From contig CAMPDV010001723.1 of NCBI GenBank assembly GCA_946699065.1, positions 1 through 64,000 of the forward strand: 64,000 nucleotides of DNA, written 5' to 3'. This DNA comes from Loxodes magnus (taxonomy: Eukaryota > Ciliophora > Karyorelictea > Loxodida > Loxodidae). The position numbers were made by a program, and so were the translations under genes. Positions 1 through 56,605 of this stretch are shown here, in pieces (within the stretch, counting starts at the first letter, position 1; every line of letters begins with the position of its first letter). Under the pieces are notes generated by a model that did no database searches, was not told the DNA's origin, and was given only the letters and a program-made list of their open reading frames with translations.

Positions 1-297
1 AATTTATGAATTCTTAAATATGTAAACAACTATTACTTCTTCTTTCACTTTACTTTTCAAATTCGTAAAAATATTTCTGAATCAATTAATGAAATTTTTA
101 AAGACTAAAGATAAATCATTTATTAGGTCTTATCATTAGTTGTAAAGTTATCGTTCATAAGACTTATATTTATTATATAAGCTTTATCTATATTTAGTAA
201 TGCTTTTATTTGTTATAATATTAATTTATAATGAAAGAATTAAAAGTAATAGTTAAATTAGATAAAATAAGTAATAAATATATAAATAAAATAAAAA

Positions 298-1203
298 ATG
301 GTAGAAGGGTTCAAGAAAGGCTTTTATACCACCTCCTAAAAAGGGGAGAGAAAGTAAGAACCTTCATCTTTAACTCACACATCTTCTTCCTAGAAATAAT
401 CTTATTCTCAAAACCTTCAAGAATAATAGACTCAACAAGGAACTTCCAGGCAAACCACTAAGATGGGACAAAAGCGTCAAAAGGCTACTACGATGACACC
501 AACTGAAGAGGAAGGACCTAGAAAGGTGCTGGAGACGCAGGAAGCAGCAACCGTGCGAGAGTTTGCGATGCCACAGTTCCAGGGAGAACAGGCATAAATT
601 TTAGTCGCATTCTCTGAACTGAAGAAGGAAGTAAAGAGGCTACGATTAGATAATAGAGCTCTAAAAAATCAAGTTACTGAGCTCAAGGAATGGAAAGAAA
701 GCTTCTGGGAAGTCTACGATCGAGAGCAAAACACTTTCTTCAGGGAAACGGGATTGCTGCAGCAGAGAACAACTGTGCTTGAAGAGAACAGCAAGTAGTA
801 ACAGTAGTAAGAATTCAAAGTCAGGACAATTCAAGATTCAATGGACATAGAAGGAGCTACTAATTTACCGAGGAGTTCGGACAAGAAATGAATTAGGAAT
901 AAACCAAGATGTTTTGCATGCAAACAAACTGGACATAAATATAGACAATGTTAGAAATTGAAATTAATTAAATAATAGTGCTGAAATAGAAAATAATAAG
1001 AAAAATATTAGTACTAATATTAGGATAAAATTAGATGAGAATACTGTAACTAATTTTATACGTCAGGAGGTCAAATCTACAAACCGAAGTGGTACATAAT
1101 CCAAGGCGACTGAAGAAAGAGTTCTGAAGGGAGCTGGTTCCAGCCAGGTTATCAAACTGGTGCTGTGAACACGAGGTTGAAAGTCCTCCAAGTTCACTAA
1201 ACT
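298..1203 (+). CDS. LINE ORF1-type protein with CCHC zinc knuckle (family 1)
   Basis: Read with UAR=Gln and UGA=Trp, this is one open frame of about 300 residues. It starts MVEGFKKGFYTTSQKGER, has a charged heptad-like stretch around residues 105-165 (coiled coil, leucine and lysine/glutamate rich), then a knuckle CFACKQTGHKYRQC (CX2CX4HX4C) near residue 203. A Trp- and Gly-rich tail follows (RWEYCNQFYTSG, GDWRKSSEGSWFQPGY). TGA occurs in frame at 889, 982, 1036 and 1111, and the first and second flank the knuckle. All are shared with the second copy, and the protein-like composition continues past each, so they read as Trp. This domain order is that of LINE ORF1/Gag-like RNA-binding proteins. 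The 3' end is approximate, set where coding composition fades. Base composition is far more G+C-rich than the surroundings. Confidence 0.75.
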
Positions 1204-2108
1204 CCAATTTAAAGTTTTTAATTTAGTAATATATATAGTAATAAATAACTAATTGAAATAAAAAAGATATTAAATTATAACTAGAAAATAAGCTTCTCAT
1301 ATTTAAATAGGAGAAAAGCCAAAATATATGCAAAAACTATCTAAATAAATTTAAGTTAGAATTATATAATTTAAATTAATAAAAATAAGCATTCTCATTC
1401 TTAACTTACAGAGACTAGTTAAATAACAAAAATAGCAAAATTAAACATCCAAAGTTAATTATATCTATAATCCATTAAAAATTAGTATCCTTAAATTTAA
1501 ATAGGAAAGGTAGAAAATTATTATAAAATTTAAATAGAGAAAGGAGAGAGTTAATGAATAAGTTGAATAATAACAAACTTTATTAAGAAATAAAATAAAT
1601 AAATATATAAAGGCTTTTAAATTAAATTTAACAATTGAAGGAAGATACATTAAAAGAATTAAATGAGCGATAATTTATAAATATATTAATTAAAAGAATA
1701 AAATTTTCTATTAAAGATAAAATTATAAATAAATAGAATAATTAAATTTAAAAATAATAAATATAAATGAGATTAAATATTTATAGAACAAATTTATAAA
1801 AATAAATAACTTCTATTGTTTAACATAACTAAAGCTAACTTTAAATTATATTATTATAAAGTAGGATTAATTATAATTTTATTTGTAAGATAAAGCTATT
1901 AATTTTGATAAATTAAGCTTATAAAAATAAATATAAATAAACAATTACTAAATCAATAAAAGAAACATTAAGGAATAGAATAAATAGCAACTCTAAATAA
2001 ATATTAAATCCATAAATTATTAACTTATAATTAAAATTTTAAAAAGTAAGATTGAAGCTTAAAGATTTAATTGTGAGAGAATAAATATTTATTATTATAT
2101 TATATAAA
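1204..2108. other. A+T-rich spacer inside the composite repeat
   Basis: Almost pure A/T sequence with no domain or conserved motif that I can recognise. It is preserved nearly unchanged in the second copy of the composite (54841-55745), so it moved or was duplicated together with the two ORFs. I see no gene in it. Confidence 0.6.
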
Positions 2109-2962
2109 ATGGCTTTAAGAAATAACAGAATTTTGAACAAAACATTTAAACAGGAAAATTCTCTAAAAACAAAAAACCGAAATAATTACAATGAGTAAAA
2201 GTGAGAAATATGATTGATATGACGAACATTAACTACTTGGAAATCCAGAACTAAAAAAACTTCAGACACAAACTAAAATAGAAATATTATCTAAGTCATT
2301 AAAAGAGTTTATGTTTAAAAATAGATACCTCACTGATAAAATAGAAAAATTAGAAAAATTAATATCGTTTTGCTTGAGAAAAAATATTAATAATCATAAG
2401 AAATAGAAAAAAAACTGAAACAAAGAATTCTTTAAATTTAATAATAAATTCAGGTAACGCCATTTTCGTTTTAACATAATTAATCAGATCTTATGGAAAT
2501 AGAAAATGAAGCATCAAATTAAAATAAACAGTAAACGTTTATTTAAAATAAGTAGTAAATTTAAATTAAATAAGTGTTACAGGAATAATAGTTTAAAAGA
2601 AGAATAAAATGCTACGTGTGCAATAAATAACACCAATGAGAATACTGCTACTAACTAAGCGAAATTTAAAGAAAGAATAAATAAGATATTTTTAGAAAAC
2701 TATTTAGGATATATCCAACATAAAGCGGAAAAATTTATAGAAAAAAATTCTTTAATTCAAATCTTAATCCTTGGATAAATAATTAGGAACGCTAAGTGCA
2801 AGACCAAAACTATTCCGAATATTAAAGGATGGTGCACTAATGAAGTGCTACACCGCCTAACTAAGCCTAGTAGGAATTCAAGACAAACTAATAGAGACAA
2901 GCTGATAGAATAGGTCAGATGGCTGACTACTATGGCTTTAACAAAGCTTTTTAACTTTTTAA
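2109..2962 (+). pseudogene. LINE ORF1-type gene, family 2 (frame change)
   Basis: Homologue of 55746-56604 and of the minus-strand copy at 27826-29515. The parts are a basic N-terminus, a conserved block starting MSKSEKYDWYDEHQ (Trp = TGA) at 2191, a coiled coil, a segment MEIENEASNQ, and a zinc knuckle CYVCNKQHQWEYC at about 2610 (CX2CX3HX4C, Trp = TGA). In this copy the knuckle is out of frame with the upstream block by a small length difference in an A/T-rich run near 2360-2410; the 53.6 kb copy keeps one frame. A Gln/Asn/Arg-rich tail runs to the TTTTTAAC repeats. It is a LINE-type ORF1 derivative and probably a dead copy. Confidence 0.65.
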
Positions 2963-2965
2963 CTT

Positions 2966-5250: not shown

Positions 5251-6397
5251 TAAATAGCTTAATCCTACAGATAAGATAAAATATCTATATTGATCTTACA
5301 AGAAAAATTAACTCTAATTTTAAAATTAAATAATAGAAAAGTTTATGATTATGCAAATATTATGAAGATGTGGAAAAGTTAAATAAATAATAATTATATA
5401 TATTTTATAATTAAAAAACAGTAATTTAAATATTTAAATTAATAATTAATTTTTATTATAATATTTTATATTATATAAGCTTATTTATCTCAACTTTAAT
5501 TTAAAAAACCTTATTTTTAGATTATATATCTAAACATAAAATAGATATATTTTTAGTATCTTAATTAAATTAAAATTATTTTAATTTTCTTTCATTTAAT
5601 CAAATAAATTTTAACCATATATTAATATTTAATTAGCTTCTCTTTTCGTTAAAGATAATTTAAGAAGTGAAATAAAGTTACCTCATAACTTTTAGTTTTA
5701 TAGTGATAAATAATTTTAGACTTTAGTTTTTTATTATTTACATTCTTATAGATTTTTATGCCTTCAAATATTTTTAGGTTAGCTATCGAACTCTTATATT
5801 ATGAAATTTTTAAGATTTTTCATTAATATAAGGATAAGATAGACATCTAAAAAAGAATCTTCACAAACAAGAATTTAGCATTTTTTAAATAAATATTAAA
5901 TTTTTTAATTTATTTAGATTTTATTTGAAAGAAGTAGTATCAAATTTAAGTAACTTAAGGAACATTAATAAATTAAGCTTTAATAAATAAGTAAATTCTA
6001 ATTTTTTTAATTTAAAGCACTATAATTTTAATTTTTTATTAATAAGCTTTCAATTATAATTCAACTGCATTATAAAAAATAATAGTTACTAACAAAATTT
6101 AAATAAAAACTAATTCTCGCTTTATAATTAAGGAAGGCTAAAAAATTTGCTTTAGTAGTAAACAAGTTTAATTTAGTAAAAGTTAATTTTAAAGTTGCAT
6201 AAACTCTTAACTTTGCTTTTAAATAGTAAATGCTAATTTTTATTTTCGTAAAGAAGCAGAATTTATTTTAAACTTGCAGGGACATAAAAGCAGTCAATTG
6301 AGTAACTTGGAATTTTTTAAGCAAGTAATTATTTTTTTATTTTCTACATTTTAAATTAATAGTTATTGATATTTTAATTTAACTATTTCGTTATAAA
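5251..6397. other. A+T-rich upstream region of receptor gene A
   Basis: No gene seen. Around 5620-5720 it aligns with 45550-45660 upstream of gene C (shared AGCTTCTCTTTTCGTT-like block). From about 6345 to the ATG the two flanks become practically identical, including AACTATTTCGTTATAAAATG. That abrupt rise in identity looks like the 5' edge of a gene-conversion tract rather than a conserved promoter, though a promoter must lie here. Confidence 0.5.
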
Positions 6398-9300
6398 ATG
6401 GAAAATTGTATTAAGAGTACAATAAGGGATTTGAAATAAAGGTTAATCTCTTTATTATACTTTTATAGATAAATTTTTTCTAGATCGTTACTAATCTTCG
6501 CTTTAGTTCAAATGAGTTTGATTAAGCTTTCTTCTTCATAAAATTTAAACCAAACTTGGATATCTAAGCATGACGGTTCAATTATGTCTGTATGTCCCAA
6601 TGAATTCAACTGAGTAATTTACAAAGAAGACAAGTGTGAATGCCAAGAAGGTTACTTCTGACATAAATATACTTAAATATGTTAGAAATGTTAAATCGAT
6701 AATTGCATAGCTTGCGAAGCCAATTATGGTGACTAATATTACGTAGTTCGTTGTACTAAATGTGATACTGGTTATTCACTGTTTGGAGATTTTTTCTCTA
6801 AATGTGTTAGCAGCTGTCCTTAAGGATTTATTAATAAAAGCAATAAATGTGAATGTCCTAGTGGAATGTATAGATTTGATTGAAATGAGTAATGCTACAA
6901 CTGTTCAATTATCCACGAAGAATGCCAGAATTGTTCAATATCCTTATGAAAATAGACTCTTTATTGCACTAAATGTCCTTTAAATTTGTTGACAGTAGAA
7001 GGAACTTGTAAAGAATTAAATGATACCTGCCCACATAATTAGTTTTAAATATAAAAAGACAAATCCTTTTGTAAAGGATGTGAAGATGATTGCAAAAAAA
7101 CGCAAGATTGCATTTACAATAAAACTTGCTTTTGTGGAAAATACAACTATTATGATGAAAAATAAAACTAATGGTAATGTCTTGATAAATGTCCATAGAA
7201 TTATACAGCATAATGAAATTATGGTGGAAATTAAATTTGTATTTATTAAGGAAAAATCTTAAATTATTATAATAATGAGTTTTTAAATGCATGCTCTAGT
7301 TAAGAAGGTCTTGTTAAAAGTGGATAAGTTTGCTATTGCTTTAATAAAACTTATTTTTATGAAGAAACACAAAGAAGTTGTATTCCTTAGTGTGAATAAG
7401 TTGGACAAACAAACGTATAGGGAACTTGTTGGGATTGTAATACATGAATTCTAGATTGTAAATCATGCTCCAATAGATTAAATTGCTTTGAATGTCGAGA
7501 AAATAGTACTTTAAATGGAAATAGATGCGATTGTAGTGAAACTTATTGTGAAAATATGTTTAACGAATGTGAATCATGCTAAGAAGTACCAAACTGTAGA
7601 AAATACAATAAAGGCATGTGCACAATGTGTGAAGATGGATATTTTTTAAATCAAAACTTAACATGTATCAACATAACTTAAGTCAAAGAAGGTTGTATAT
7701 CTGGTGACTATGGAAGTTCTAGTATCTTTTATGACCCTTGGTGTAAAAAATGCGATATTAATTATAAATTATGCAACTAAACTTGCATATTAAAGGACTA
7801 AGAATGCATAGATTCTAATAATAATTAATATTTCTAAGATAATGATCAAAATGATATTTACTAACCTTGTTTTTTCTTTATTCCGTATTGCAAATACTGT
7901 AACAACTCCTAATGTTTAGAATGTTTCGAGAATTATACTTTGCTTGATAATGGAAAATGTATTGAAGAAGAAAAAGATAAATCAGGCAATATCTCAGAAA
8001 ATGATTAAGATTCTACTAAAAACGATTTCTGGATTATATCTTAGAAAGAAAAAGATTTCGCTGAATCACAACAAATTTTATTAGAAATCATAGTTATAAG
8101 CTCTTTTGCTTCAACATGTTGTTTGATGTTCTTCGTCTAGATGAGTACTAGTACAGTTACCTAAAAATTATTTCAGCTGTATGTGATTTCTTAACTTATA
8201 CGCCTAAATGGATTAATAAATGTAAAAAAGCCTTAAATTCTATTTTATTACTATTACTAGTTCGGATAAAGTAACACTCCTCTTGTCTCATCTAACAATA
8301 AAAATCTTCCCTTCGACTTAACACCTGATAACTAACAAATAAATGATATAAACTTATAAATCTAAAACTATGAAAATTATAGCTTCCTAGGAAATAGCTT
8401 TTCTATCTTACTAATGCTAATATCAGCTGGAATTTTAATAGGAATATTTGGTGGTTTAGAGAAAATAAAAGTGATAAGCAATAAAATAAAGAAACTAAAT
8501 TAAAACTGAATAAAATATAGAATTTTACTTACTTTGATACTTTCAAAGATTTTAGATTTGAATCTAGCAATTTTCATATAACTAAGCGAAGTGGATTTTT
8601 CATAAGCAATTTCATGCATAAATGTAGTGATTTGCATTTTAAGCATAGTAAGTTTTAAAATATAGATATTTGAAATAATCTTTATGATATATATTAAAAT
8701 AATGGTAAAGAAGTTCTAAACTTTTCTATTTTAGGGAGAAAATAAATTTAACGAGAAATAGACTTTGGGAAAACTATTCCTATAGCATAGACCTATTTTT
8801 GATGAGTTAAGCTGTAAGAGTGCTTGATCATTAAGTTTTTATATTTGATTCGTTTTAAGAAGATTAATTCTTTCACTGATTATAGGTTGTTTAAGAGAAT
8901 ACGAACTAGCTTAAATAATTTTGTTTATAGTTGGAAGTGCTATATGAATAGGATATCTAATTTTATGTAAACCCTTAGAAAGAAAGAGTTCATTAATAGT
9001 GAATATTATATTAGAAGTTTGTGTGTTGATATTGTTCTCATCTAATATAGCATTATACAGTTGGGATAAAGAAGAGGGAAGAAACCTATTAGAAGGTTAT
9101 GATTTGTTTGGATATTTGATAATAATATGAAGCACTGTAATATCATTAGTAGGATTGATCATATTCATCTATGCCCTTGTCATGGACATTATTACTGAGT
9201 ACAAAAAAAGAAAATCTTTATCCCAAATCCAACATTCAGATGTCACTTCTAAGATAGATAAATTCAGTTTAGAAAAATTTGAAAAAGATTTAATTTTTAC

Positions 9301-9913
9301 AACTACTAATGTTACTAAAAGATAAAACATTAGTGATCTTCTAAATGCTACCTCTAACTAAGAAGTAAACGAGATTAACTAATCAGGATTTTTTTAACAG
9401 AAGACAAAAGTTAAACCGAAATAAACTGAATAAAAGTTGTAAAATGAGGATTAAGAAGAAAATAAAAAATATAAAAATGAAAATAAATAAATTCATCAAA
9501 TAAGACATAAAAAAGAGAGACATTTATGTAAAGTAGATTAAGTAAAATTTGATGAGCACCATTTACTAGAATGTAGAGACGAATAAGTTAATTTAATAAT
9601 AAAGAACTTAACATAGAAAATTTAGCAAATATTTTCAGAAAGCAATTTAAGAATATAATAAAATAGTATATCTCTACTAATTTTATATAAAGATGATTTA
9701 ACTATAGCATCTTCGTTAAAATTAGATATAACCTCTATCATTTTTAGAAAGTTATAATGTTTGGTTTTGAAAGAAGTAAAGAAGTTTTGGAGTTCACTAT
9801 TCAAGATAAATAAATCATTGGTGATAAAGTTTTGGAAGAAAAGCCATAAGCGTAACTAGATGATATCAAGTGTTCTTTTTAGTATTCTTAATGAGAATGG
9901 AGTCAAAGTTTGA
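6398..9913 (+). CDS. Cysteine-rich multi-pass membrane protein, receptor family member A
   Basis: An intronless frame of 1171 residues ending at TGA 9911, which aligns with the terminal TGA of B and D. A basic N-terminus is followed by a hydrophobic signal-like stretch (residues about 30-46). The ectodomain (about 66-520) is built of closely spaced CX2C and CX5-12C units, EGF/furin-like in spacing. A short linker leads to about eight predicted membrane segments (roughly 558-577, 666-687, 707-727, 741-769, 812-832, 840-858, 866-886, 906-927) and a charged 240-residue cytosolic tail. Eleven in-frame TGA codons stand beside eight TGG codons. The plan resembles the large ciliate families of cysteine-rich, furin/EGF-like membrane proteins and apicomplexan cysteine-repeat modular proteins; ligand and function are unknown. 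It appears intact. Confidence 0.9.
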
Positions 9914-13439: not shown

Positions 13440-16390
13440 AAAAAGATTGATAGAACTAAAGTGCAGAAAACACAAGAAAATGTAGTTAATAATTAAGTAA
13501 CTAAAACAAATTTTATAAAAATCACAGCAATAGAGTAACTTTTTAATTTATATCTAAAAATCTTAAGAATATCCACAAGCTTAGTTAATAAGAATGGAGA
13601 ATAAAATATAAATAAAGCTAAAAATTTATTAAAATTATAATATAAGGAAAAAGAATTATAACAGCAATAGAAATTTCTTAAAAAACTGGGAAATTACTAC
13701 GATTAAAGTAAACTCACAAGAGTAAAAATAATAAAAGTGATAATGATAAATTTTTTAAAGTATGAAATTAAATAATAGAACATATAAAAATTTTTAATAT
13801 TAAAAGATACAAATTAACAATATAGTAGTAAGAAACTAAGTTTATAATTATACAAATTATTATAGTAGAAATAAATCTGAACTATCTAAAAATAAGCAAA
13901 TTGCGTTTTTTAAATAAATAACCTGATTCAATGGAAATAGATATAAAATCTCTAAAAATTAGAAAGAGAAAAATTCTAAATAGAAGGAAATTGAAAAACC
14001 TTGTCCTAGTTAAATAGTGAAAATAATAATTTATAAGAATATTTTCACGTTATTTATATAGTTTAAATTATGAAACCATTAAATGAATTCAAATAGTTAT
14101 CTCTAAGCTTATAAAAAAGTTATAATCAAAATAAACCACTAAAGTTATTAGAAGAGTAATAGAACAAGTAAGGATTAAACTAAATAATCTAAAAAGAAAA
14201 AAAAATATGAAAAAATAAATAGAAAATATAAATATAATTAAAAAGTTAGAAGAATAAACAAGTTTTGATTAAATTTTAAATTAATAAGATAATATATTAT
14301 ATAATATGAAAATATTAGAAATTTATATAAGAAAATAAATAAAAAATGTGTAAATTTAACTGTAATTAAAAAGGATAAGAAAATGATAAAAGATTAAAGG
14401 ATAATAATAAAAATATTTTAAATTTAATTTATATTAAATACTTAATAAAAAGATATGAATTTACTCAGATAGATAATAATAATAGCTGAAACAAATTAAA
14501 ATTGAAAAATAATTTAAATTAATTAATTTAAATGAGAATTATTTTCTTTTTAAAAAATCTTAGATTAATATCTATAAAGCACTTGTAAAGAATAAGAATA
14601 TTACTGAAAATGCTAGGTTTTAAGCATGAAATTTGCTATAATAGCATTAATAAAAAAGCTATTAAAGCTAAAGAGGGCATTAAAAAGTGATTAATTAGAA
14701 TAAAAGCATTTTATCCATAAACAAAATCAATTAAAAGCTTTCTTAGGAAGAAATAAAGTAAACCAAAAATAAAAAATATTTGAAGAAAAAATAAAATAAA
14801 AGCTGATTTTTGAAATAGTAAAAAAAGAAATAAAAAGAGTAAGTAGAAGATGCAAAAGACTTAAATTTATAAAATATCTTTTAAATATAAGGTCTAGCAA
14901 TCAGAGTTCAATTAGGACATAAAATTAAAGAAAAAAATGCAAATATAGATTAAATTTTTATATGCAATCAATAATTAGAATATTATTTACAAAATTATAA
15001 GAATATTATGAATGTAAAGCAATAAAATTTAAAGCTTAAATTTCTTTGTGGAGATAAGAAAATGAAAGTTCTTGAATAGAAAAGAGTTTGAAGATAAAAT
15101 AATTGAAATTTACTTTCAAATTTCATTTATAAGAAAAAGAAATAATTGAGACCGAAGCAAACGCAAAAATATTCCAAATATATAAAGCTTAAGCATTAAA
15201 ATAGAAAAGTTGAAAAAGGCTTAAGACTTAAAAATAAAAAAAATAAAATGATAAACAGAAGTTTAATCTTATAAATAAATTAAAGCAAGAATTGAACTTA
15301 AGGATGTAATTTAAATAATTGCAATATATTTCGAAATTTGATAGATGATGCAGCATAAAGCATCTCAAATGAAAAAATATATTAAATTCAAATTATTAGC
15401 AGCTACTTTAGAAATAATGTTCTCTTCGTAGTTCTCCTACTGCTAAGTAAATCATAATTTCTTTGGAAATTTGATTCCTATAGATTTTTAGGGAAGATGA
15501 AAATTGCTGCTTCTGAAATATTTTTCTTACTTAGAAAGCACAACTCCTGCATAAAACTTGGATAATTTTATAATAAAACTTTAAAGTTATAGAATCTTCT
15601 TCTACATAAAGGAATAGCAATAAAATAATAGTCATAAAGTTCTTAAAAATACTTTCCTTAGATTACTTAGTAAATTGAAGAAACTAAAATATCATATTCA
15701 AAATTAATTCCAAAATATTACGCTTAAGAAATTAGAATAGCAAAGATAAACGAGATAAAGATCTTACTTGGCGCATGAGAATCCCATTGAAAGCTAAATG
15801 AAACACATGAAGATTACTTAAAACCTTTGGACTTAATTTGTTAAGAGTAACTAAAGAAAATACTAGTAATACAGAAAAATAGCTGATGGTCTTGGAGTAG
15901 GGTCGTTTTAGATGACTAAAGTGAAGATAGATATAGTAGCAATTGATAGAAAATATGATGAAGCTCTTTAATTCTAATAAATGAGAAAAGAAAGAAAATG
16001 TTTTTATATTTACATTTTAGGCAAGCTTTAGCATTATGATATCATTTACTCAAGAGGTAATAAATATAGATGGGTTGATAAAAAAAGTGAGTGATATTAA
16101 GAGAGACTAAGACTTCCTGTTTATTATGATAATAAAATCTAGAAGGACCTTTTTCATAGAAATAAAAACTATTGGATAAGAGAATCCATAAAAGAGTTTA
16201 AGTCTTTAAATTTTAGTTTTTATTAATTTAAAAAAAGCTAAAATTAAGAATTAAAGCAAAAGTTCTAACAAATAAAATACTAATAATTATAAAAGTACGA
16301 AGTATATCAATTATATAAAGAATATAATTAATTATTTATTTATAATGTGATCATAAAATATGCAAATATTGCCTTTAATGCTAATTAGAG
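13440..16390 (+). pseudogene. Decayed coiled-coil/otubain/RING gene copy, inverted middle
   Basis: On the + strand, an A-rich, Lys/Glu/Gln-coding stretch (13440 to about 15330) leads into an otubain-like domain. REDENCCFWNIFL at about 15490 aligns with VRGDGNCYYRAIGF of the intact gene; STTPAQNLDNFIIKL and FLRLLSKLKKLK align with the following helices. Catalytic-His-type text appears near 16030 (SFSIMIS/LHYDIIY depending on frame). The first half of a RING follows near 16344 (LQCDHKICKYCLQ), although its first CX2C pair has become YX2Y. Several frame changes and the altered DGNC motif (DENC) argue that it is dead. The last RING pair is missing here and lies inverted at 13085-13250. The coiled coil is far shorter than the 8.7-kb intact copy. 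Confidence 0.65.
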
Positions 16391-19928: not shown

Positions 19929-22900
19929 ATGAAAAATTATAAGAAGAGTGCAAGAAGTATTTTGAATGAAATCTTAATAACTTAGCTAGACTTTATTAGA
20001 TAAATTATATCTAGATAATTACTAATTTTCACTTTGGTTCAAATGTGCTTGATCAAATTTTCTTCTTCTTAAATCTTAAGCCAAAATTGGATATCTAAGC
20101 ATGACGGTTCAATTATGTCTGTATGTCCCAATGAATTCAACTGAGAAACTTACGAAGGAGTAAAATGTCAATGCCAAGAAGGTTACTTCTGACATAAATA
20201 TACTTAAATATGTTAGAAGTGTTAAATTGATAATTGCATAGCTTGCGAAGCCTATTATGGTGAAGCATATTACGTAGTTCGTTGTACTAAATGTGTAACT
20301 AAATATTTACTGCTTGGAGATTTTTTCTCTAAATGTGTTAGTAGCTGTCCTTAAGGATTTACTAATAAAAACAATAAATGTGAATGTCCTAGTGGAATGT
20401 ATAGATTTGATTGGAATGAGTAATGCTACAATTGTTCAATTATCCACGAAGAATGCCAGAATTGTTCAATATCCTTATATAAGCAAACTCTTGGTTGCAC
20501 TAAATGTCCTTTGAATATGTTGACAGTAGAAGGAACTTGTAAAGAATTAAATGATACAAACTGTCCTTATAGTTCTTATTTAAAAACAACAGACAAAAAC
20601 TTTTGCTAAGGGTGTGGAGATAATTGCGGAAAAGCACAAGAATGCCCTTATAATAAAACTTGTTTTTGCGGAAAATAAAACTATTATGAGGAAAAATAAA
20701 ATTAATGGTAATGTCTTGATAAATGTCCATAGAATTATACAGCATAATGAAATTATGCTGGAAATTAAATTTGTGTTTATTTAGGAAAAACCTTAAATTA
20801 TTATAATAATGAGTTTTTAAATGCGTGCTCTAGTTAAGAAGGTCTAGTTAAAAGTGGATAAATTTGCTATTGCTACAATAAAACTTATTTTTACGAAGAA
20901 ACACAAAGAAGTTGTATTCCTTAGTGCGAATAAGTTGGACAAACAAACGTATAGGGAACTTGTTGAGATTGTAATAAATGAAGTCTAGATTGTAAAATTT
21001 GCAGGAATAGATGAGGCTGTCTTGAATGTCGAGAAAATAGTACTTTAATTTCTTATTATTGCGTTTGTAATGAAACTTATTGTGAAAATATGTTTAACGA
21101 ATGCGAATCGTGTTTGGAAATACCTAACTGTAGAAAGTATAATAAAGGCATGTGCACAATGTGTGAAGATGGATATTTTTTAAATCAAAACTTAACGTGC
21201 GTCAACATAGCTTAAGTAAAAGAAGGTTGTATATCTGGTGATTATGGAAGCTCAAGTATCTACTATGAGCCTTGGTGTAAAAATTGCACAACAAATTATA
21301 AATTATGCAACTAAACTTGCATATTAAAAGATTAAGAATGTTTAGATTTCAATGGCAGTAATTATTTCCAAGATAAGGATAATAATAATATTTACTAACC
21401 ATGCTTTTTCTTTATTCCATATTGTAAATACTGTAACAACTCCTAGTGTTTAGAATGTTTCGAAAATTATACTTTGTATGATAATGGTAGATGTATTGAA
21501 GAAATAAAAAATATCACAAATATATAAGAAGAATAATAAAACATTACAAATACCAATGAAGAAATTTAAAACAATACAGATATTATTGAAGAGGCTAAAA
21601 ATGTTACAAACATCAATGAAGAATAATAAAATAATACAAACAATAATGAAGAAGTTTAAAACAATACAGATATTTATGAAGAAGATTAAATAAATATAGA
21701 AAATTATGAAAAAAATAATAATTATTCAAACATAAATGAAGAAAATTAAAACTCAACAGACCAGACACATAATGAAACAGAGTTTTGAACTTTATCTTAG
21801 AAAGAATAAAACTTCGCTAATTCATAAAGAATTTTAGTAGAAGCTACAGTTGTCGGTGCTTTTGCTTCTACGTGTTGCTTGATATTCTTCGTTTAAATGA
21901 GTACTAGTACAGTTACTTAAAAACTATTTCAGTTATATGTTATTTCTTAACTCATACGTCTAAATGGATTAATAAATGTAAGTAAACCTTAAATTTTATT
22001 TTATTACTACTATAAGTTCGGATAAAGTAACACTCCTCTTATCTCATCTAATAATAAAAATATTCCCTTCGACTTAACACCTAATAACTAACAAATAAAT
22101 GATATAAACTTATAAATCTAAAATTATGAAAATTATAGCTTCCTTGCTAATAGTTTTTCTATCTTAATAATGTTTATATCAGCAGGAATTTTAATAGCAA
22201 TATTTGGTGGTTTAGAGAAAATAAAAGCGATAAGCAATAAAATAAAGAAACTAAATTAAAACTGAATAAAATATAGAATTTTACTTACTTTGATACTTTC
22301 GAAGATTTTAGACTTAAATCTAGCAATTTTCATATAACTAAGCGAAACAGATTTCTCATAAGCAATTTCATGTATAAATGTAGTGATTTGCATTTTAAGC
22401 ATAGTAAGTTTTAAAATATAGATATTTGAAATAATCTTTATGATATATATTAAAATAATGGTAAAGAAGTTCTAAACTTTTCTATTTTAGGGAGAAAATA
22501 AATTTAACGAGAAAGATACTCTGGGAAAACTATTCCTATAGCATAGACCTATTTTTGATGAGTTAAGTTGTAAGAGTGCTTGATCATTAAGTTTTTATAT
22601 TTGGTTTGTTTTAAGAAGAGCAATTCTTTCACTGTTAATAGGTTGCTTAAGAGATTTTGAACTAGCTTAAGTAATTTTGCTTATATTTTCAAGTTTTATA
22701 TGAATAGGATACTTAATTTTATGTAAACCCTTAGAAAGAAAGAGTTCATTAATAGTAAATATTATATTAGAAGTTTGTGTGTTGATATTGTTCTCATCTA
22801 ATATAGCATTATATAGTTGGGATAAAGAAGAGAGAAGAAATTTAATGGAAAGCTATGATTTATTTGGATATTTGATAATAATATGAAGTTCTATAATATC

Positions 22901-23645
22901 ATTAGTAGGATTGATCATATTCATCTATGCACTAGTTATGGATATAATTTCTGAGTACAAGAAAAGAAAATCTATATCTAAGATCCAGCATTCAGATGCC
23001 ATTTCTAAGACTAGCTAAAATAGAGTCAGTGATAGAGATTTTATTTTTACTACTACTAATGTTACTTAAAGACAAAACATTAGTGATATACTTAATGCTA
23101 CCTCTAACTAAGAAGTAAATGATATTAATTCGTCAGGATTATAAAAGAAGAAGATAAAAAGTGAGTCAAAATAAATTTAAAAAGAATCATAAAATAAAAT
23201 TTAAAAGCATGAAAACAAAGAAATTCATCAAATAAGACATATAAAAGAGAGAAATTTATGCAAAGTAGATTAAGTAAAATTTGATGAGCACCATTTACTA
23301 GAATGTAGAGATGAGAAAGTTCGTTCAATAGTAAAGAAATTAACTCAGAAGATTTAGCAAATATTAAAAGAAAATAGTATAAGAATATAATAAAATAGCA
23401 TATCTCTGCTAATTCTATATAAAGATGATTTAACTATAGCATCTTCATTAAATTTAGATATAAACTCAATCATTTTTAGAAAGTTATAATGTTTAGTTTT
23501 GAAAGAAGTAAAGAAGTTTTGAAGTTCACTATTCAAGATAAATAAATCATTGGTGATAAAGTTTTGGAAGAAAAGCCATAGACGTAACTAGATGATATCA
23601 AGCGTTATTTTTAGTATTCTTAATGAGAATGGAGTTAAAGTCTGA
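19929..23645 (+). CDS. Cysteine-rich multi-pass membrane protein, receptor family member B
   Basis: One frame of 1238 residues, ending at TGA 23643 in alignment with A and D. It shows the same plan as A: basic N-terminus, hydrophobic signal-like segment (LLIFTLVQMCLIKF), Cys-rich ectodomain with CX2C repeats, about eight membrane segments, and a charged tail containing RHIKERNLCKVDQVKFDEHH. It differs from A by an insertion between ectodomain and first membrane segment of about seven 10-residue repeats rich in Asn, Thr and Glu. At five aligned sites the Trp codon differs between A and B (TGG in one, TGA in the other). Upstream and downstream flanks are partly shared with C and D. It appears intact. 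Its ligand is unknown; a surface sensor or adhesion role is only a guess from the architecture. Confidence 0.9.
21505..21775 (+). repeat. 30-bp coding tandem repeats (N-x-T rich) in receptor B
   Basis: About seven imperfect 30-bp units encode decapeptides of the form NNTNNNEEVQ / NNTDIYEEDQ. They lie between the last Cys unit and the first membrane segment, where A has only about 20 unrelated residues. Most units carry Asn-x-Thr, the N-glycosylation sequon, so the insertion would make a flexible, glycosylated stalk. Unit-to-unit similarity suggests recent slippage expansion. Confidence 0.75.
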
Positions 23646-26444
23646 ATTTTAAACTTAAAAGTTAAAAGCTTATTAAAATTTAAATAGTAAAGATATATTC
23701 TTTATTAAATTTATACCCAATTTATAAATTCAAGCATCCTTTATGAATTTACATATAATAAAAATAAATATTTTCCTTTACTAAATAATTTATTCATAAA
23801 TTGCTTATTTAATATTAAATTTGATGAATTATTGAAAGAATCTTTAACTTCCTATATTTATTCGATGATTATGCTTTAAAGGATTTTTATTAATAGAAAG
23901 TTATTAAAAATATCTGATCTAAGATACATTGTATTTTGATATTCATTTTAAATTTTATTAAGAACTTCATACCTTTTTACCTATTATTGTCTTGAAGATA
24001 AAATTGTTTGTTCCTTTTTTCTAAAAACTAAACTTTAAGTAACTGAGAAAATGAATAAAATCTAATTTCTTAAGTCTTTATTACTAAATAAGTTTAATTT
24101 CACTTATAATCATTTTACATTTATCTAGCTACATTTCTTTTAGTAGGTTTTTCCTTTTTCATAACTAGTTTTAAAAATTTAACTTTTAACATTTTTTTAA
24201 ATAGTTGCAAATTTAACTTGAGAGTAGAGATAAAAATTTAGATTTCATTTGATTCTAAATAGCTTTTTATCTTTATAACCTTTTTATAAGAAGGCTGTTT
24301 TTAGCATTAGTTTAAGAGTAAAAGCTAGTTAGATTTGTATAATTTGTAAATTTATTTGTCTAGATAGGTGAAAACTCTGAAATAATAAATAAATGATAAA
24401 GTTTGAGTATAAAAAGAATAATAAACTGAAAATTCTTAAAGTTTGATAGATATAAAATTGTAATAGTGTTATATAAAGCATAATATTAATTTAAGCTAGT
24501 ATATTTATTTAATTTTAAAGCATAATATAAGTATAAATGTATAATAATAAATTACTAAGCTTAGTAGAAATTTAAAGTCCTAGAAGTATTATTTTAATTG
24601 TTTTGCTATATAATAGTAAAGAAATAAATGCTAAATATAAAGGATTTATCTTTTATATAGTTACTTTTGATTAAATTCTTTTAAAATAAAATAAAATAAA
24701 ATAAAATAAAAATTTTATAAATAAGTAAGTTTATAAAAGTTATATAAGATAATTAAAGTAACTAACGATGATTAACTTAAATTAGTTAACTACGTAGTAA
24801 TCATCTAGAAATAAGAGTGATATAACTACTAGAGCATAATCCTAACATCATGTTTAGTAAATATAATAAATTTTAAATAAATTTTAGATTTTTAATCACA
24901 TTATACTCGTAAATAATAGCCAAGCATAATCAATAAAAGCTTAGCTATTCTAGAGTTCTAAAAAATATTATATAATTATATAGATTAAAGTTGCAAGCGT
25001 TTATAACTATTAAAAGATAACTAGAATATTATAATCAAACATTAAATAGCAAAAGAAATAGAAAACACTTTTCAATTATCAACAATAAAATAGTTATAAT
25101 ATTCGAATAAATTATAATTCATAAGCTTTTCTTATTTTTCATATAGACAAAATAAATTAAACTTATGTAGTTAGATATTTAAAGTGTGTATATATGAATA
25201 TAATTTATTTTTAACGTTAAAAGATTATGAATATAAATTAAGAAATAAGAACTCCCAGATTAATAAGAAAACCTTTCTATTCTAGTAAATGAGATCAATT
25301 TTAATTCAAATATCTATTACAGTTTTTATTGCAATTTTAATTTATCTTATTTATCTCTTTAACTTTAAGAAGTCTAAATAAATTATAAGTATTTTAAAGT
25401 GTTTGATAGTTTCCAAATATTTTTAAATAGAAAGAAAATTTAAGTATTTATCCAAAAATACAGAATAACAATTATTTATTTTATTAGATAAGTATTATTA
25501 ATAACTAATAAGATAAACTTTGCTTTTCTATTCTTTTTTTAGAGGAGATATTTCTCTTAAAATTTAGCTTGATAGCATAAATTTGAAATTATTTATTTAA
25601 AAAATAAAAAGATTAAAGTTTTCTGAATAATTACATATAAATAGCTATAAAATTTATTCTTTTAATAGCAAACTAATTAATATACTTATTCATTTATATT
25701 TAAAATTATCTAGCACTATCAATTATTATATTTCACTTGATCCAATTTTCTTATACTTTAGACAATCAACTTTAAATTTTCTAAATGTGAGCATATTTAT
25801 ACTTCTTCTACACAAACATAAATAGAAATAAAGTTTTAATTTATAATAAATATACATTCCTTATTCAGTTATTCTCTATAATAGAGTTATATGATTTCAA
25901 CTATTTTTATTTATATACCAATGTATTTAATTATTTAGTTAGAAAGTTCTTTGTATATACTCATATATTATAAATCTTCTTTATATCAAATATTATCTAA
26001 CTTTATATTTTTCGAATCAGTTAAGTGCTTTATTTTTATTTGCATTCCAATTTCGTTTAGTTCTACATAAAATTTCTAGATACTTTTGAGTTATCGATTT
26101 GATTATATTCTTAAAATAGTTATCTACCACTTTTAATATACTTTAAAATCTAAGAACTAGAGTTTAAAATTTATAAGATAATATGACTATAAAATAAATG
26201 GAAACTAAATTAAAATTATTCTAATAAATGTGAAAGCTTACATTTATTGTTCTTTTATACTTAAGAACTATATAAAAATATAAAGGCAATATGTCTATTT
26301 ATAAATGAATGACCTCATAAACATAACTTAAACAATTTAAAGCTTAAATTAGTATAATTAATTAAATAATTTATTCAAATGAACCTTTATAAAAAATTAT
26401 AATGGAATATAGTTTATCTAAGTCTTCTACTTATAAATAATCTT
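23646..26444. other. A+T-rich intergenic DNA, paralogous to the receptor D 3' flank
   Basis: No gene seen. It aligns intermittently with 57489-59455, the 3' flank of receptor fragment D: shared TTTTATAAATAAGTAAGTTTATAAAAG at 24711 and 58722, AAACTTAAATTAGTTAAC at 24776 and 58782, and an AAGCTTAGCTAT block. Both flanks end in a minus-strand LINE ORF1 copy. A short (AAAAT)n run lies at 24682-24711. Confidence 0.55.
24682..24711. repeat. (AAAAT)n microsatellite
   Basis: Five to six consecutive AAAAT units. A plain short tandem repeat with no further context. Confidence 0.85.
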
Positions 26445-27825: not shown

Positions 27826-28167
27826 AAAAAAAGTTTAAAAACTTTATTAAAGTCTTGGACGTCAGTCATCTAACCTATTCTATCAGCTTGTCTCCATTAG
27901 TTTGTCATGAATTCTTACTAGGCTTAGTTAGGCGGTATATAACTTCATTAATGCACCATCCTTTAATATTCTGAATTGTTTTAATCTTGCATGTACGTTC
28001 CTAATTATTTCTCCAAGGATTAAGATTTGAATTAAAGAATTTTTTCTATAAATTTTCCGCTTTATGTTAGATATATCCTAAATCTTTTTTTAAAAATATC
28101 TTATTTATTCTTTCTTTAAATTTCGCTTAGTTAGTAACAGTATTTTCATTAATGTTATTTATTGCAC

Positions 28168-28180
28168 ACGTAATATTTTA
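28168..28180. repeat. Target-site duplication, left copy
   Basis: ACGTAATATTTTA on the left matches ACGTAAAATTTTT at 29009-29021. The uninterrupted homologous site in copy 1 of the composite (reverse complement of about 2594-2606) has a single ACGTAGCATTTTA. A duplication of about 13 bp next to a simple-repeat tail is typical of target-primed reverse transcription. Confidence 0.65.
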
Positions 28181-29008
28181 TTAATAATAATAATAATATA
28201 CTAAATTAAGTGTTTGCTGCTTTGTGGAATAACAACCTAATTTCCACCGCCAACCAGTGATCGCTCCTGAGGTTTAAAATAAAAGTTCGACACACCAAGT
28301 TTTTTCGAAGTACTGGAACTTGATTGGAAAATTCTCTTTCTGTAAATTCTTCTGTCCATAGTCACATAAATTCTCATTAATTCTCTTCATACTTCTTCGC
28401 TGTTTCTCTTCATCTGTTTCTTGTATATCTTGTATCTCTTGTAACTATGTAATCTTGATTAGCACAGGTAACATCTCTCGAGAATCCTTCTAATATTTGT
28501 TGTTTCTATTTGCCTATCGTCTTCTACTTTCATTTTTTTTTCTTAGATTAAAGATTCTATTCTTTTTTGTCCAAGTTGCTTTAATTCGATTTCTTATTTG
28601 ACTAATCTTTCTTCAGTATTTTTACTTTTTTCTAATAATTTTTTGTTTTCTTACCTTAATATTTTGACTTCTTCTTACAGAATTCGAACGATTTCAAAAG
28701 AGTTTCAATTAATATTTATTCTTCATTTTTTATTTTTGCATTATCAGATTTCATATAGTTACTTGGTCTTGGTTTAGGAAGAAAGTAAATATTTTATTAT
28801 TCGTTTTATTATGCTTTTTTTAATTTAAGTTTTTATTTTATTTAAGATTGTCTTTAATTTTCTACTGTTGGAGGTTATTAAGATTAAGAAAATTATTATT
28901 TTAATAAAGAAGACGTGGTGGATGAAGAATTAGAAGTCTCTGATTTTTACTCCTTTATCTATGAAGACTGCAAAAACCCTTCTTGAGACCTTCTGCCATT
29001 TTTTATAT
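28181..29008 (-). mobile_element. LINE ORF1-type element (family 1) nested in a family 2 element
   Basis: An 830-bp insertion that begins (minus strand) with an ATG near 28999 and MAEGLKKGF, homologous to the other family 1 starts. It has a zinc knuckle CYLCQSRLHSYKRY with the last ligand changed to Tyr, a Trp-rich C-terminal stretch (GAITGWRWKLGCY) and a (TTA)n tail at 28181-28199. The knuckle and N-terminus are in different frames, so it is decayed. It is flanked by an imperfect target duplication. Confidence 0.7.
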
Positions 29009-29559
29009 ACGTAAAATTTTTTTCTTCTTTTAAAATATTATTCCATTTATTTAATTTAAATTTACTAGTTATTTTAAATTAATGTTTACTGTTTATTTTA
29101 TTTGAGGCTTCATTTTCTATTTCCATAGGATCTGATTGATTCTGCTAAAAACAAAATGGTGTTTCCTGAAATTATTATTAAGTTTAAAAAATTATTTGTT
29201 TCAGTTTTTTTTCTATTTCTTATGATGATTAATATTTTTTCTCGAGCAAAACGATATTAATTTTTCTATTTTATCAGTGAGGTATCTATTTTTGAACATA
29301 AACTCTTTTAATGACTTAGATAATATTTTTATTTGAGTTTGTGTCGGCAGTTTTTTTGATTCTGGACTTCCAAGTGGTTAATGTTCATCATATCAGTTAT
29401 ATTTCTCACTTTCACTCATTGTAATTATTTCGCTTTTTTATTTTTTAGAGAATTTTCCTGTTTTAGTATTTTGTTCAAAGTTCTGTTATTTCTTAGAAAC
29501 CATTTTATATAATTTTTATATAATAGCTGAAGCTATAGAAAAATTAGCTTGATAATTAT

Positions 29560-32711: not shown

Positions 32712-35700
32712 TCATTTTTAAAAAAATTCATTCTTTTTTTGAAAATTTTCTCTTCCTATTACTTTCTCTATTTCTTGTTCTGTTATTATATAGCTACACA
32801 TCTAACATTTTACTTTAATATTTATTGACTCTGATTTTCCTCTTGTTTTTTATTCTATTCAGTCTTAAAGGCAAAATTTACAAACTTAATGATGACATTA
32901 TAAAATAACTATCTATAGATGTTCTATATCTAATTAACATACTTCACATTTTAAAAATTATTATTCTTCTATTTATTATAGTTTCTTACTTTAGTTCTAA
33001 ATTTTTGCTGTATCTGCTGTATTTATATAAGGTATTATATACTAAATTTTAAAAGGCTTAAACTCTTCTGATGGACTTTCTTACCCAGTAACTTGAATCT
33101 CTATAAAAAAAGGTTTTTCTGGATTTTATATATCATAATTGAACGGAAGCTTTATTCTTTCTTAATATTACTCACTTAATTCATCAAATCCATCTACATT
33201 GGACTATTCTTTCGAATATATTATATCATAATGTCCTAGTTTGCATAAAATGTAAATCTAAGGATATTTTCCTGCTATCTTCATTTTTTATATCTAATTA
33301 ACTGCAGCTCGATTTCTATCAATTGTAACTATATTTACCTTCACTTTCAAAACCACATGAAGTGGACCTACTCCTAATCAATCAGCCTCCTTTCCCATTG
33401 TCAATACATTTCTTATCAGTTCTTCATAAGAAGTTTAACAAAAAGGCTCAAAATACTCTCTATGAGACTCTAAATAGTTAGCAGTAAGACATCTCATTTA
33501 TCAAACAAGAGCTTCATCTTGATTATCCTTGTTATCTTAAATTTCTTAAGCAAGATATAGTTGAATAAACTTTTAATTTTATTCTTTTAGTTCTTTCAAG
33601 TTATTAAGTAATCTAAGGAAAGTTTATTTGAGAATTTGATGACTATTATTTCTATTATTAGGTCTTATTTTGTAGTAACCTCTATCACTTTCTAATTTAT
33701 TTATAAAGTCTTCTAAATGTTATACTGGAGTAGTGTATCTAAGTAAGTGTTCTAAGTAAGAAAATCCAATAGCTCGGTAGTAGCAATTTCCATCTCCTCT
33801 AACATTTCTATAAGAATCGAATTTCTATTATAGTTCTTATACTACTTTTTTTATATCTTCATTATGCTTATATTCGTTTAAATAAGTATTAAGAGATTTA
33901 CGAGGATATGTTTATTTCAATTATAGTGTTTATGGGTTTGTCATCATATTTTAACTCAAATTAATAGTTTAATTTTTTAAATTTTATAGAGTTTAATCAT
34001 TGTATTATTAGATATTTTATTGGAAATTTTAATTCTAATTTTGAGACATTATAGCTTTTTCATTTTCTTGTCTGAATTGTTCTTTTATTGACTTATTTTC
34101 TTCTGATTAAAAATGGTTTGTAAACTATAAAAGTTCTTAATTTTTCTAATCAATTTAAAGTTATTATTGCTGAATTTATTCTTTCATTATATTTTACTAT
34201 TAAGTTAGGAATATATTATTTTTACTTAGATCTTCGTTTTATTGTTACATTATTTTAATTTCTTATTCCAATATTGCATTTTTTTTATTTTGTTAATCAA
34301 TCTAAATTTAAAAGTTTTAATATTGTATTTAAGCATTTTCAATAGCTTGTTTCAGATATTATTTTTCTTGTTTTTCATTTAGGTTTTTCTATTTCAATGT
34401 GCTTATTTCTTCACCTAGTTTTTATTATAACAATTAAACTTCTTATTTATGCTTTTATTCTTATTACTGGCTCTAAGCAAATAAATTATTATACTAATTT
34501 TCTAATTCGCTTTGTTTATCAAAACTTTACTGTAATTGCTTTTATAACTCTTTCATATCACTTAACTGTCTTTAAATTTTCAAATTTAAGTCTTTGGATT
34601 CATTATTTTTGTTTTCCAAATCATATTCTTTTTTTCTTAAGTCTTCTACCTAAAATAGATATGTTTGGATTTATTCTTAATAATGTTTGCTTTAATTTTA
34701 TATTTTTTATACTTCATTTTCAAATTCTTCTCTCTACTATTCTGCTTTTTCTTTTCTTTCCACTTATATGCTTTATATTTATTTCTAATTTTTTGTATTA
34801 ATTTCTTCTAGTATTTTTATCTAAATTAACAAGTTTTAATAGGATTAATTTTATTGCATTATTTCTTATTGATCCTATTTTTGCTGTTGCAATTATTTAT
34901 TTTCAGTTTAAAGTCTTTCATTTATTTATTCAAGTGTTTCATATTTTTTATTTACGCTTTAAAGATTTTTAATGTTTTACTAAAGCTCTTTTACTTAGTT
35001 TTAAAATTCCTCTTATTTTGACTTTTATTTCTACAGAAATTCTTCATTCTTTTCTTTTAATAAAATTATTTCTTCTTTGCTTTATTAAACTTAATCTTAC
35101 AAAGAATTGCTATTTTATATCAAAGAATTTTTTTCTGCTTGGGTTTTTTAAATTTATTCTTCCTTTTGTTTAATTACTATTAAATTTTCTTATTTTTCTT
35201 TTGCTAATTGCTAAGCAAAAGCTCTTAGCTCTCCTATTTATTTTTCTAGTTGAATTATCACTTTTCCTTCTTTTTATTTTTCTATTTGCTTAGTGTATTC
35301 TTAATTATTAATTTCAAGCTATAAAATTTGTTATTCTAAAATAGATGTTTTTTCCTTTAATTCAGCTTTTTATTGTTCTTCTTTTATTTGGTTTTATTAA
35401 ATTTATTCTTTTATTTATTACTATAATGTCCTTTTTCCTTCTTCAGCTTTTTATTTTAATTACTAATCTTAGCTTTATTACCTTTTTAGTTGCTCAATTT
35501 GACTTTGTAATTAGTCTTTTTCTTTTTAATATTGTTTAAATTTAACTTATTTTTCCCTTTTATTATTCTCTTTAGTATCATTTTACATAAGTAAATCTTA
35601 ATATTTTTTTTATATATCTTGGAATGCTTAGTTTTATTGGGCATTATCTCTTTCTTGCTGCTGTATAATACTTTCGTATTTTTCAATTTATGTTTTATAT

Positions 35701-45540: not shown

Positions 45541-46368
45541 AAATTCATCTTATATTTAATTAACTTCTCTTTTCGTTTAAAATAACTTTAGAATAAAAAT
45601 TAAAAGTTCTTTCAAAACTTTTAGCTTTAATATAGATAAATGATTTTAGATATTTTGCTATTTTTAATTTAAAATTTTATTATTTAAATAGCTTACATCC
45701 TTATTAGATTTTATTTATTCTACAAACCTAAAAATCTTTTTAGGTAAAGAAAAAACTTTATCTTTCGAAGTTATTTTTCTAAGTTTGCTCGTTATTAAAA
45801 AGAATAAATGAACAGTCTAAATAGAGCTTTAAGTATCTAAAAAATTGATTTAAAAAAATAGTTTTTTTAAGTTTCTACTAAGAAGAAATATTCAATCATT
45901 TAATTAATCAAGAAAGCTTTTTCTTGGATTTTAGAAAGCAAATAAATTTAATTATTAGTAACTTATAAGTACTAATTTACCAAACTTCTTCATAATCATC
46001 CACTTTATATTTTTTAGCTTATCTCAATAAAATTTACTAGCAACTTAATTAAAACTCAAATTAACGGAAAATTCTTAATCTGCTTTATAATGTAGACCAA
46101 TAAAGTTTTTATTATTAATTTAATTTTAATTAATTAAAGAAGAATTTAAGATTCAGAAAATACTTTAGCTTTGCTACTAAAGTAGTAAATGCTAGTTTAG
46201 GAATGTAAAAGTAACTTTATTTTAAAACTCTAAGAAAATATGTTAGCCACTTAAATGAATAGCTTTCAATTTTATTTATAATAGAAAGTCTGATATAAAA
46301 TGGGGTTGCTAAGTTTACATTTTAAATTAATAGTTATTGATATTTTAATTTAACTATTTCGTTATAAA
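45541..46368. other. Upstream region of receptor gene C
   Basis: Aligns with the upstream DNA of both A and B in patches. Identity with A jumps to near-complete from about 46316 to the ATG. No gene seen. Confidence 0.5.
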
Positions 46369-49300: not shown

Positions 49301-49380
49301 GAGATACTTCAAATCAATAAAACAATTCTACTTTTATTTAGGAATCTCAAGTTGAAATTAAAAAGTAAAGAAGGAGATGA
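46369..49380 (+). CDS. Cysteine-rich membrane protein, member C: A-like ectodomain with a different C-terminal half
   Basis: Frame from ATG 46369 to TGA 49378, about 1003 residues, net in phase. The first 520 residues are almost identical in DNA to gene A. From about 47950 the sequence becomes unrelated to A and B at DNA level, although it again encodes a series of membrane segments (for example around 48075, 48400, 48520, 48610, 48840, 48980 and 49090) and a basic Gln/Arg-rich tail. Within the ectodomain there is one base fewer than A at about 46846 and 11 fewer at about 47335. The reading frame is therefore shifted between these points and restored after. One ectodomain Cys is also replaced (Arg at about 46685). 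It may be a recently damaged gene, or one with a replaced segment. The exchanged C-terminal module is the notable point. Confidence 0.75.
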
Positions 49381-53637: not shown

Positions 53638-53934
53638 AATTTATGAATTCTTAAATATGTAAACAACTATTACTTCTTCTTTCACTTTACTTTTCAAATT
53701 CACATAAGAATTTCTGAAGCAATTTATGAAAATTTTAAAGACTACAGATAAACCTTTTATTACATCTTATCATTAGTTGTAAAGTTATCGTTCATAAGAC
53801 TTATATTTATTATATAAGCTTTATCTATATTTAGTAATGCTTTTATTTGTTATAATATTAATTTATAATGAAAGAATTAAAAGTAATAGTTAAATTAGAT
53901 AAAATAAGTAATAAATATATAAATGAACAAAAAA

Positions 53935-56604: not shown

Positions 56605-56605
56605 T

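Follow-up and report, generated by a model that had tools for sequence, protein, structure and literature searches.

The genes in a 64,000-nucleotide (nt) stretch of DNA (contig CAMPDV010001723.1; hereafter the window, meaning the whole stretch) very likely follow an ambiguous genetic code, in which UAA and UAG (UAR) are sense codons, most likely for glutamine (Gln), and UGA is read as tryptophan (Trp) inside genes and as a stop near the 3' end of the mRNA. The window would then be nuclear DNA of a ciliate or a similar alveolate, and the code would be that of NCBI translation table 27, or of table 28, which is the code of Condylostoma magnum, if UAR can also stop. The window is very AT-rich (guanine plus cytosine, GC, 22%), and its longest stop-to-stop frame under the standard code is 172 codons. 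The genes that stand out clearly are one giant gene on the minus strand and a family encoding Cys-rich multi-pass membrane proteins: A and B, C (damaged), D (a 3' piece) and E (cut by the window end).

Gene A (6398–9913, plus strand; 1171 codons) combines a Cys-rich ectodomain with a multi-pass membrane protein, its topology being judged by eye from the sequence. It contains internal TGA codons, read as Trp, at 6611, 6659, 6881, 6947, 7214, 7445, 8507, 8825, 8846, 8945 and 9128, and ends with TGA at 9911–9913. Its paralogue B (19929–23645, plus strand; 1238 codons) has 12 internal TGA codons and a terminal TGA at 23643–23645. Fragment D (56604–57488, plus strand; 294 codons) is the 3' end of a further paralogue, with a terminal TGA at 57486–57488, and gene E (62654–64000, plus strand; 449 codons, 12 TGA and 3 TGG) is a diverged paralogue cut by the window end. 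The giant gene (32712–41417, minus strand) spans about 2,900 codons from an in-frame ATG at 41417 to a terminal TGA at 32714–32712, and encodes a coiled coil, an otubain domain and a RING domain. Two other codes fail on these genes: table 6, in which UGA is only a stop, meets 11 in-frame UGA codons in A, 12 in B and 12 in the giant gene, and the Blepharisma code, in which UGA is Trp and UAR is stop, meets in-frame UAR at 6.0% of the codons of A and 13.9% of those of the giant gene.

UGA codons within genes

An earlier note on this DNA had reported that A and B exchange TGG and TGA at five aligned codons, and all five pairs were found where it had placed them: 6881 (TGA)/20412 (TGG), 7430 (TGG)/20964 (TGA), 8030 (TGG)/21786 (TGA), 8846 (TGA)/22602 (TGG) and 9788 (TGG)/23520 (TGA). 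Two more A/B sites carry TGA on one side only, opposite TAT (Tyr) and TTA (Leu). Under a null of nonsense mutation, in which the A/B partners of TGA follow codon abundance, TGG is the expected source in 3–9% of one-step cases. It was the partner at five of the six one-step sites (p from 1e-7 to 3e-5 for kappa from 1 to 10); the sixth partner was TTA, and the seventh site (TAT) lies two steps away. The note had also stated that E keeps TGA at the same Trp sites. This held for 8 of the 12 TGA codons of E, at which A, B or both have TGA as well; in the other four columns A and B show Ser/Asn, Gly, Tyr and Asn/Tyr.

These results bear on the possibility that the DNA comes from a ciliate using table 6, with UGA as the only stop, and that the window holds non-expressed or decayed copies whose internal TGA codons are nonsense mutations. 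Decayed copies are present: about 490 nt of C are out of frame, the second otubain copy contains frame shifts, and there are retroelement-like repeats. However, a nonsense origin does not predict the exchange of TGA with TGG (p≤3e-5), nor TGA columns shared by A, B and E while the amino acids are constrained: the ratio of nonsynonymous to synonymous substitution rates (dN/dS) under the ambiguous code was 0.29 for A/B, 0.20 for B/D, 0.26 for A/D, 0.33 for A/E and 0.38 for B/E, and the family is therefore under purifying selection. Moreover, a coding score treated the giant frame as one unbroken coding segment of 2821 codons, with TGA making up 0.42% of codons in the coding frame as against 1.7% and 3.7% in the other two frames of the same strand. 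We consider a table 6 origin extremely unlikely.

A codon substitution model, in which every meaning was tried for each codon, was fitted to the A/B/E, A/B/D and A/B columns. Trp was the best meaning of TGA in all three runs. With Grantham distances it was followed by Phe (6.1 log-likelihood units, lnL, lower), and a stop-like meaning was 9.6 lower; with BLOSUM scores, by Tyr (5.1 lower), with the stop-like meaning 8.6 and Cys 28 lower; and with the 3' half of C added, by Tyr (6.2 lower), with the stop-like meaning 8.9 lower. The codon of the Trp in the RING motif CLQDWIE of the giant gene (RING domain at 32796–32948, minus strand) is TGA, at 32861, as the note had reported. PF00097 scored this RING best with TGA as Trp (20.1 bits; Tyr 17.9; Cys, Arg and Gly 14.8–14.9), and, of the five meanings tried, only Trp brought PF13639 into the list (E≤0.05). 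A different sense meaning of UGA, such as Cys, as in the Euplotes code, or selenocysteine, could draw on the Cys-rich character of A, in which TGA neighbours Cys codons, and on PF14634, which scored Cys (14.2 bits) above Trp (13.1); set against the 28 lnL deficit of Cys and the fall of the PF00097 score from 20.1 to 14.9 bits with Cys, it has next to no likelihood.

Several observations weigh against reading UGA as Trp. The codon-model controls were imperfect: 42 of 64 codons were recovered with Grantham distances, 39 of 56 with BLOSUM scores (codons seen at least five times), and 4 of 9 pairs in two-codon controls run with the 3' half of C. For the RING of the giant gene, PF14634 listed Tyr (16.3 bits), Arg (15.7) and Cys at E≤0.05, and not Trp; for the otubain domain, PF02338 preferred TGA as Arg, Gly or Tyr (23.3–24.5 bits) to Trp (21.8), and PF10275 did not separate the meanings (120.7–122.5 bits). 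A crude BLOSUM80 partner count favoured Tyr as the meaning of TGA, with Trp 5.2 log10 units behind. This count, which was right for 38 of 63 codons, was set aside: it penalises residues with one other codon because identical codons are dropped, and it called TGG itself Phe. The codon models are free of this flaw and were used in its place. Because the giant-gene Pfam scores give a partial and mixed check, the case for UGA as Trp rests on the paralogues. Taken together, the swaps, the three codon-model runs, the nonsense null, the shared columns and, in part, the RING score bear out the earlier proposal, and UGA is strongly supported, at the level of sequence, as a Trp codon inside the genes.

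UAA and UAG codons

Whole-code fits with re-fitted parameters favoured Gln for UAR. Relative to Gln, the fits were lower by 5.0 lnL with Lys, 6.3 with Glu, 3.7 with UAA as Lys and UAG as Glu, 21.6 with Leu, 31.0 with Tyr and 17.8 with a stop-like meaning. PF10275 likewise scored the otubain domain at 121.8 bits with UAR as Gln, compared with 106.5 for Tyr and 106.0 for Leu. The long coiled coil of the giant gene, judged as such by eye, is Gln-rich if UAR is Gln.

Other scores weigh against Gln in particular. Applied to UAA and UAG singly, the Grantham model placed His (+4.1) and Lys (+1.2) above Gln, and the BLOSUM model Arg (+3.9) and Lys (+1.0). With UAR treated as a pair, Arg (+1.3) and Asn (+0.4) edged Gln, and Asp came close (−0.5); in the same paired model Lys and Arg also edged Gln for the true Gln codons, CAA and CAG. 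PF10275 barely separated Gln from Lys (120.9 bits), Glu (119.8) and Lys/Glu (122.2), PF02338 preferred Lys, Glu or Lys/Glu (26.0–26.4 bits) to Gln (21.8) by about 4 bits, and PF00097 gave Lys 21.2, Glu 20.7 and Gln 20.1 bits, a difference of up to 1 bit.

From these figures one could argue for the same ambiguous UGA with UAR meaning something other than Gln, for instance Lys or Glu, with UAA and UAG sharing one meaning or having one each. PF02338 and PF00097 lean that way, the paired codon model does not rank Gln first, and a ciliate with UAA as Lys and UAG as Glu has been published (PMC10553269; here and below, statements on published systems refer to the surveyed sections of the cited papers). 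Against this stand the whole-code fits, in which Lys, Glu and the Lys/Glu split all fall 3.7–6.3 lnL below Gln, and the literature surveyed, in which UAR is Gln in Amoebophrya and in the ciliates for which a double role of UGA, Trp and stop, has been reported. Such a code is, in our view, very unlikely. Gln is the likeliest meaning of UAR because, in that literature, it is the commonest reassignment in ciliates and the one reported alongside UGA as Trp and stop. Thus, of the earlier assignment of UAR to Gln, the part that stands is that UAA and UAG are, on codon usage and fits, certainly sense codons for a polar residue; Gln itself is most likely, with Arg, Asn and Asp indistinguishable from it in the codon models.

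UGA codons at gene ends

A, B and D had been described as ending at an aligned TGA after NENG-V/F-KV, and this TGA is present at 9911, 23643 and 57486. The 180 nt before it are free of indels, and the A/B differences there fall mostly at third codon positions (1, 2 and 7 at the first, second and third). In the flank after it, frame-breaking indels occur from +64 and periodicity is lost (A/B 14, 11 and 12 over the first 120 columns). From these 180 nt to the 90 columns after TGA, differences rose from 10/180 to 27/80 for A/B (p=1.2e-8), from 18/180 to 23/83 for A/D (p=4e-4) and from 16/180 to 15/80 for B/D (p=0.036), and amino-acid-changing differences between A and B jumped in the first 13 codons after TGA (p=0.0013). 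The A/B/D differences therefore place the end of coding within about 20 codons of the TGA, and coding likely ends exactly there. For the giant gene, the maximum of the coding score lies at 32727; an in-frame TGA comes next, at 32714, and a UAR 7 codons after that. TGA thus stands where coding ends in two unrelated families, A/B/D and the giant gene, and possibly in C, for which TGA 49378 is a possible, weak end. Only TGA ends were seen, from two or three independent genes, and ends at UAA or UAG as in table 28 are not among them.

One alternative holds that UGA is always Trp and that translation really stops at a context-dependent UAA or UAG a few codons beyond the terminal TGA; Blastocrithidia offers a parallel, its UAA serving as a sense codon and as the stop (PMC12153298). 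A, B and D do share a conserved, aligned in-frame UAR 14–15 codons beyond TGA, and in the giant gene one follows after 7 codons. Between A and D, similarity persists through the first 45 columns that follow TGA (6/45 differences versus 18/180 before; p=0.59), and the first 13 codons show no significant jump in amino-acid-changing differences for B/D (p=0.25) or A/D (p=1). Such downstream stops are at odds with the jump at TGA between A and B and with the coding score, which loses a few bits across these additional codons in each of A, D and the giant gene. They would also require that a Trp TGA happened to lie among the final 15 codons in one family and among the final 7 in the other, unrelated one, a coincidence for which a hand estimate from in-frame TGA rates (about 0.95% in A/B and 0.42% in the giant gene) gives about 0.4%. 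We judge this alternative unlikely. UGA as the terminator is the best reading of the alignments and coding scores, and the earlier claim that it stops translation at gene ends is supported by the TGA at the ends of two unrelated families; the exact position of the stop is less firm, with UAR within 15 codons downstream.

Further points limit the evidence for the dual role of UGA. The coding score in A and D, a rough guide only, peaks about 325 nt before TGA, drifts, and falls after it. Neither Trp codon occurs among the final 25 codons of A, B, D or the giant gene, and the depletion of UGA just before stops that belongs to the table 27 code was not significant here (2 TGA to 5 TGG in the last 60 codons, 34 to 22 elsewhere; p=0.13). 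No tRNA was found within the window, Rfam, rRNA included, gave no match at gathering score within it, and no conserved housekeeping gene turned up among its scanned stretches.

As to how the two meanings might be told apart, the base after TGA does not distinguish internal from terminal codons: A or T follows 30 of the 36 internal TGA codons of A, B, D and the giant gene, and the terminal ones are followed by A, A, T and T. In C. magnum a sequence motif was rejected, and closeness to the poly(A) tail was proposed as the signal (Swart et al. 2016; PMC4967479). By analogy with published work on such species, UGA would be read by a tRNA-Trp with a UCA anticodon, or by a CCA tRNA with a 4-base-pair anticodon stem; this tRNA would compete with eRF1, and a short 3' untranslated region (UTR) would put the last UGA near the poly(A) tail, where eRF1 would win. 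The GC content of the 200-nt flanks after the terminal TGA of A, B and D, 14–17%, would suit AT-rich 3' UTRs.

UGA share of Trp codons

Internal Trp codons divide into TGA and TGG as 11/8 in A, 12/7 in B, 12/3 in E and 12/9 in the giant gene (counted from 41189 to its end), so that TGA accounts for 47 of 74 and, gene by gene, for 57–80%. C (10 of 16 TGA) and D (1 of 4 TGA) were left out of this count because C is broken and D is a fragment. The UGA share is close to the A-ending share of the AAR, GAR, CAR and UAR pairs, which is 69–87% in A, B and E, and UGA makes up 0.42–2.7% of all codons in the window genes.

These figures suggest, tentatively, an ambiguous code at compositional equilibrium, in which UGA is at once the majority Trp codon in ordinary genes and the only stop; we hold this somewhat more doubtful than probable. 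The UGA majority may not represent the genome, because the window gives only two unrelated gene families. If the suggestion is true, the two meanings of UGA would have to be discriminated very efficiently, and selection against Trp-encoding UGA away from gene ends would be slight. The code itself is known, and UGA as the majority Trp codon may be the new point: the literature surveyed, which did not cover the UGA share of Loxodes, yielded no report of it for an ambiguous code.

A codon that can mean either an amino acid or stop puts to the test how ribosomes recognise the place to terminate. In the published accounts surveyed, UGA is a minor Trp codon in Condylostoma, Parduczia, Plagiopyla and Amoebophrya, and could therefore be seen there as tolerated read-through. 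Were UGA both the main Trp codon and the terminator, position-dependent termination could carry the full load, and such a genome, if the suggestion is true, would be a strong subject for ribosome profiling. The contrast with species in which UGA is minor may shrink once the Loxodes UGA share is set beside it.

Other features of the window

Gene A gave a weak R-spondin match (E 0.018) and a sub-threshold TRP-channel match (E 0.71). Gene B carries a tandem repeat expansion of 30/90-base-pair units at 21497–21752, just before the membrane part, which is absent from A. Gene C (46369–49380, plus strand) has a 1-nt deletion in a T run and, about 490 nt later, an 11-nt deletion that restores the frame, so that approximately 46846–47337 is out of frame; it is probably a pseudogene, or in part an assembly error. 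Its 5' half together with some upstream flank (46316–47949) is 92.6% identical to A (6345–7990), and its 3' half has diverged, a pattern that looks like gene conversion between members of the array. The downstream flanks of B (24025–25020) and D (57881–59014) are duplicated too, with 75–78% identity, and the paralogue array therefore probably arose by segmental duplication.

The giant gene joins an otubain, that is, deubiquitinase, domain (Peptidase_C65; 33213–33884, minus strand; PF10275, E 1.3e-35; OTUB1 and OTUB2 in the PDB, best E 3.7e-19) to a C-terminal RING, which may make it a ubiquitin ligase as well. Otubain and RING in one protein are, to our knowledge, an unusual pairing. The decayed otubain-RING copy (15526–16378, plus strand) is a pseudogene with frame shifts.

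The rest of the window holds, besides the decayed otubain copy and the duplicated flanks, repeats resembling long interspersed nuclear elements (LINEs). One LINE-like copy (1–2965, plus strand), whose first frame is gag-like and which has CCHC knuckles at 910 and 2610, is 98.0% identical to a second at 53638–56603 (plus strand), which stops directly at fragment D, so that D starts exactly where the repeat ends. A partial inverted copy at 27828–29513 is 88–90% identical. No reverse transcriptase domain was found in the stretches scanned. The earlier note had also cited Trp residues encoded by TGA in the zinc knuckles of these repeats. As evidence for UGA as Trp they were rejected as weak, because the compared copies are without clear codon periodicity and look neutral, and because of this negative domain result.

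The Pfam scan covered part of the window, so further genes may be missed. Searches of IMG/VR and GTDB contigs with the receptor, otubain and repeat proteins or with DNA patterns found no relative, although the peptide patterns may miss Trp- or Gln-rich stretches if restricted to standard codons.

Comparison with known codes

The earlier note had placed the host with the karyorelicts, Condylostoma or an undescribed relative of these, which is too narrow: the code does not single out a lineage, because Plagiopyla frontata, of the class Plagiopylea, and the dinoflagellate Amoebophrya sp. ex Karlodinium veneficum are reported with the same assignments. In P. frontata, UAR is Gln and UGA is predicted as both stop and Trp, the meanings that are likeliest in the window, but UGA as Trp is rare there, occurring in 3 of 240 proteins (PMC10553269). 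Amoebophrya likewise reads UAR as Gln and UGA as Trp and also stops at UGA; unlike the window genes, it strongly favours UGG over UGA, in 14 of 14 dynein heavy chain alignments (PMC6394959). Blastocrithidia nonstop and its relatives share UGA as Trp and one ambiguous stop codon, but there UAR is Glu and the stop is UAA (PMC12153298), whereas here Glu falls 6.3 lnL below Gln, PF02338 leaning the opposite way.

C. magnum resembles the window in its UAR sense codons, UGA as Trp and context-dependent termination (PMC4967479). It differs in stopping at UAA and UAG too, where the ends seen in the window carry TGA, and in the rarity of UGA, at only 0.042% of codons compared with 0.42–2.7% in the window genes. 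The window is likewise unlike Parduczia, with UGA at 0.120% of codons, in having UGA as the majority Trp codon (PMC4967479).

Karyorelicts use NCBI table 27, to which Loxodes magnus is assigned (PMC11441545). With L. magnus and Parduczia sp. the window shares UAR as sense, UGA as Trp inside genes, UGA at gene ends, and retroelement-like repeats (PMC11441545, PMC4967479). Its genes, at 23–29% GC, are more AT-rich than those of L. magnus at 33.5% GC, and its AT-rich 3' flanks, at 14–17%, are like the L. magnus UTRs at 18.6% (PMC11441545). The surveyed sections on the Loxodes genome report that no extensive editing was found, and the window resembles that genome in its repeats, pseudogenes and sparse genes (PMC11441545); such repeat-bearing, gene-sparse DNA would equally fit germline DNA of another ciliate.

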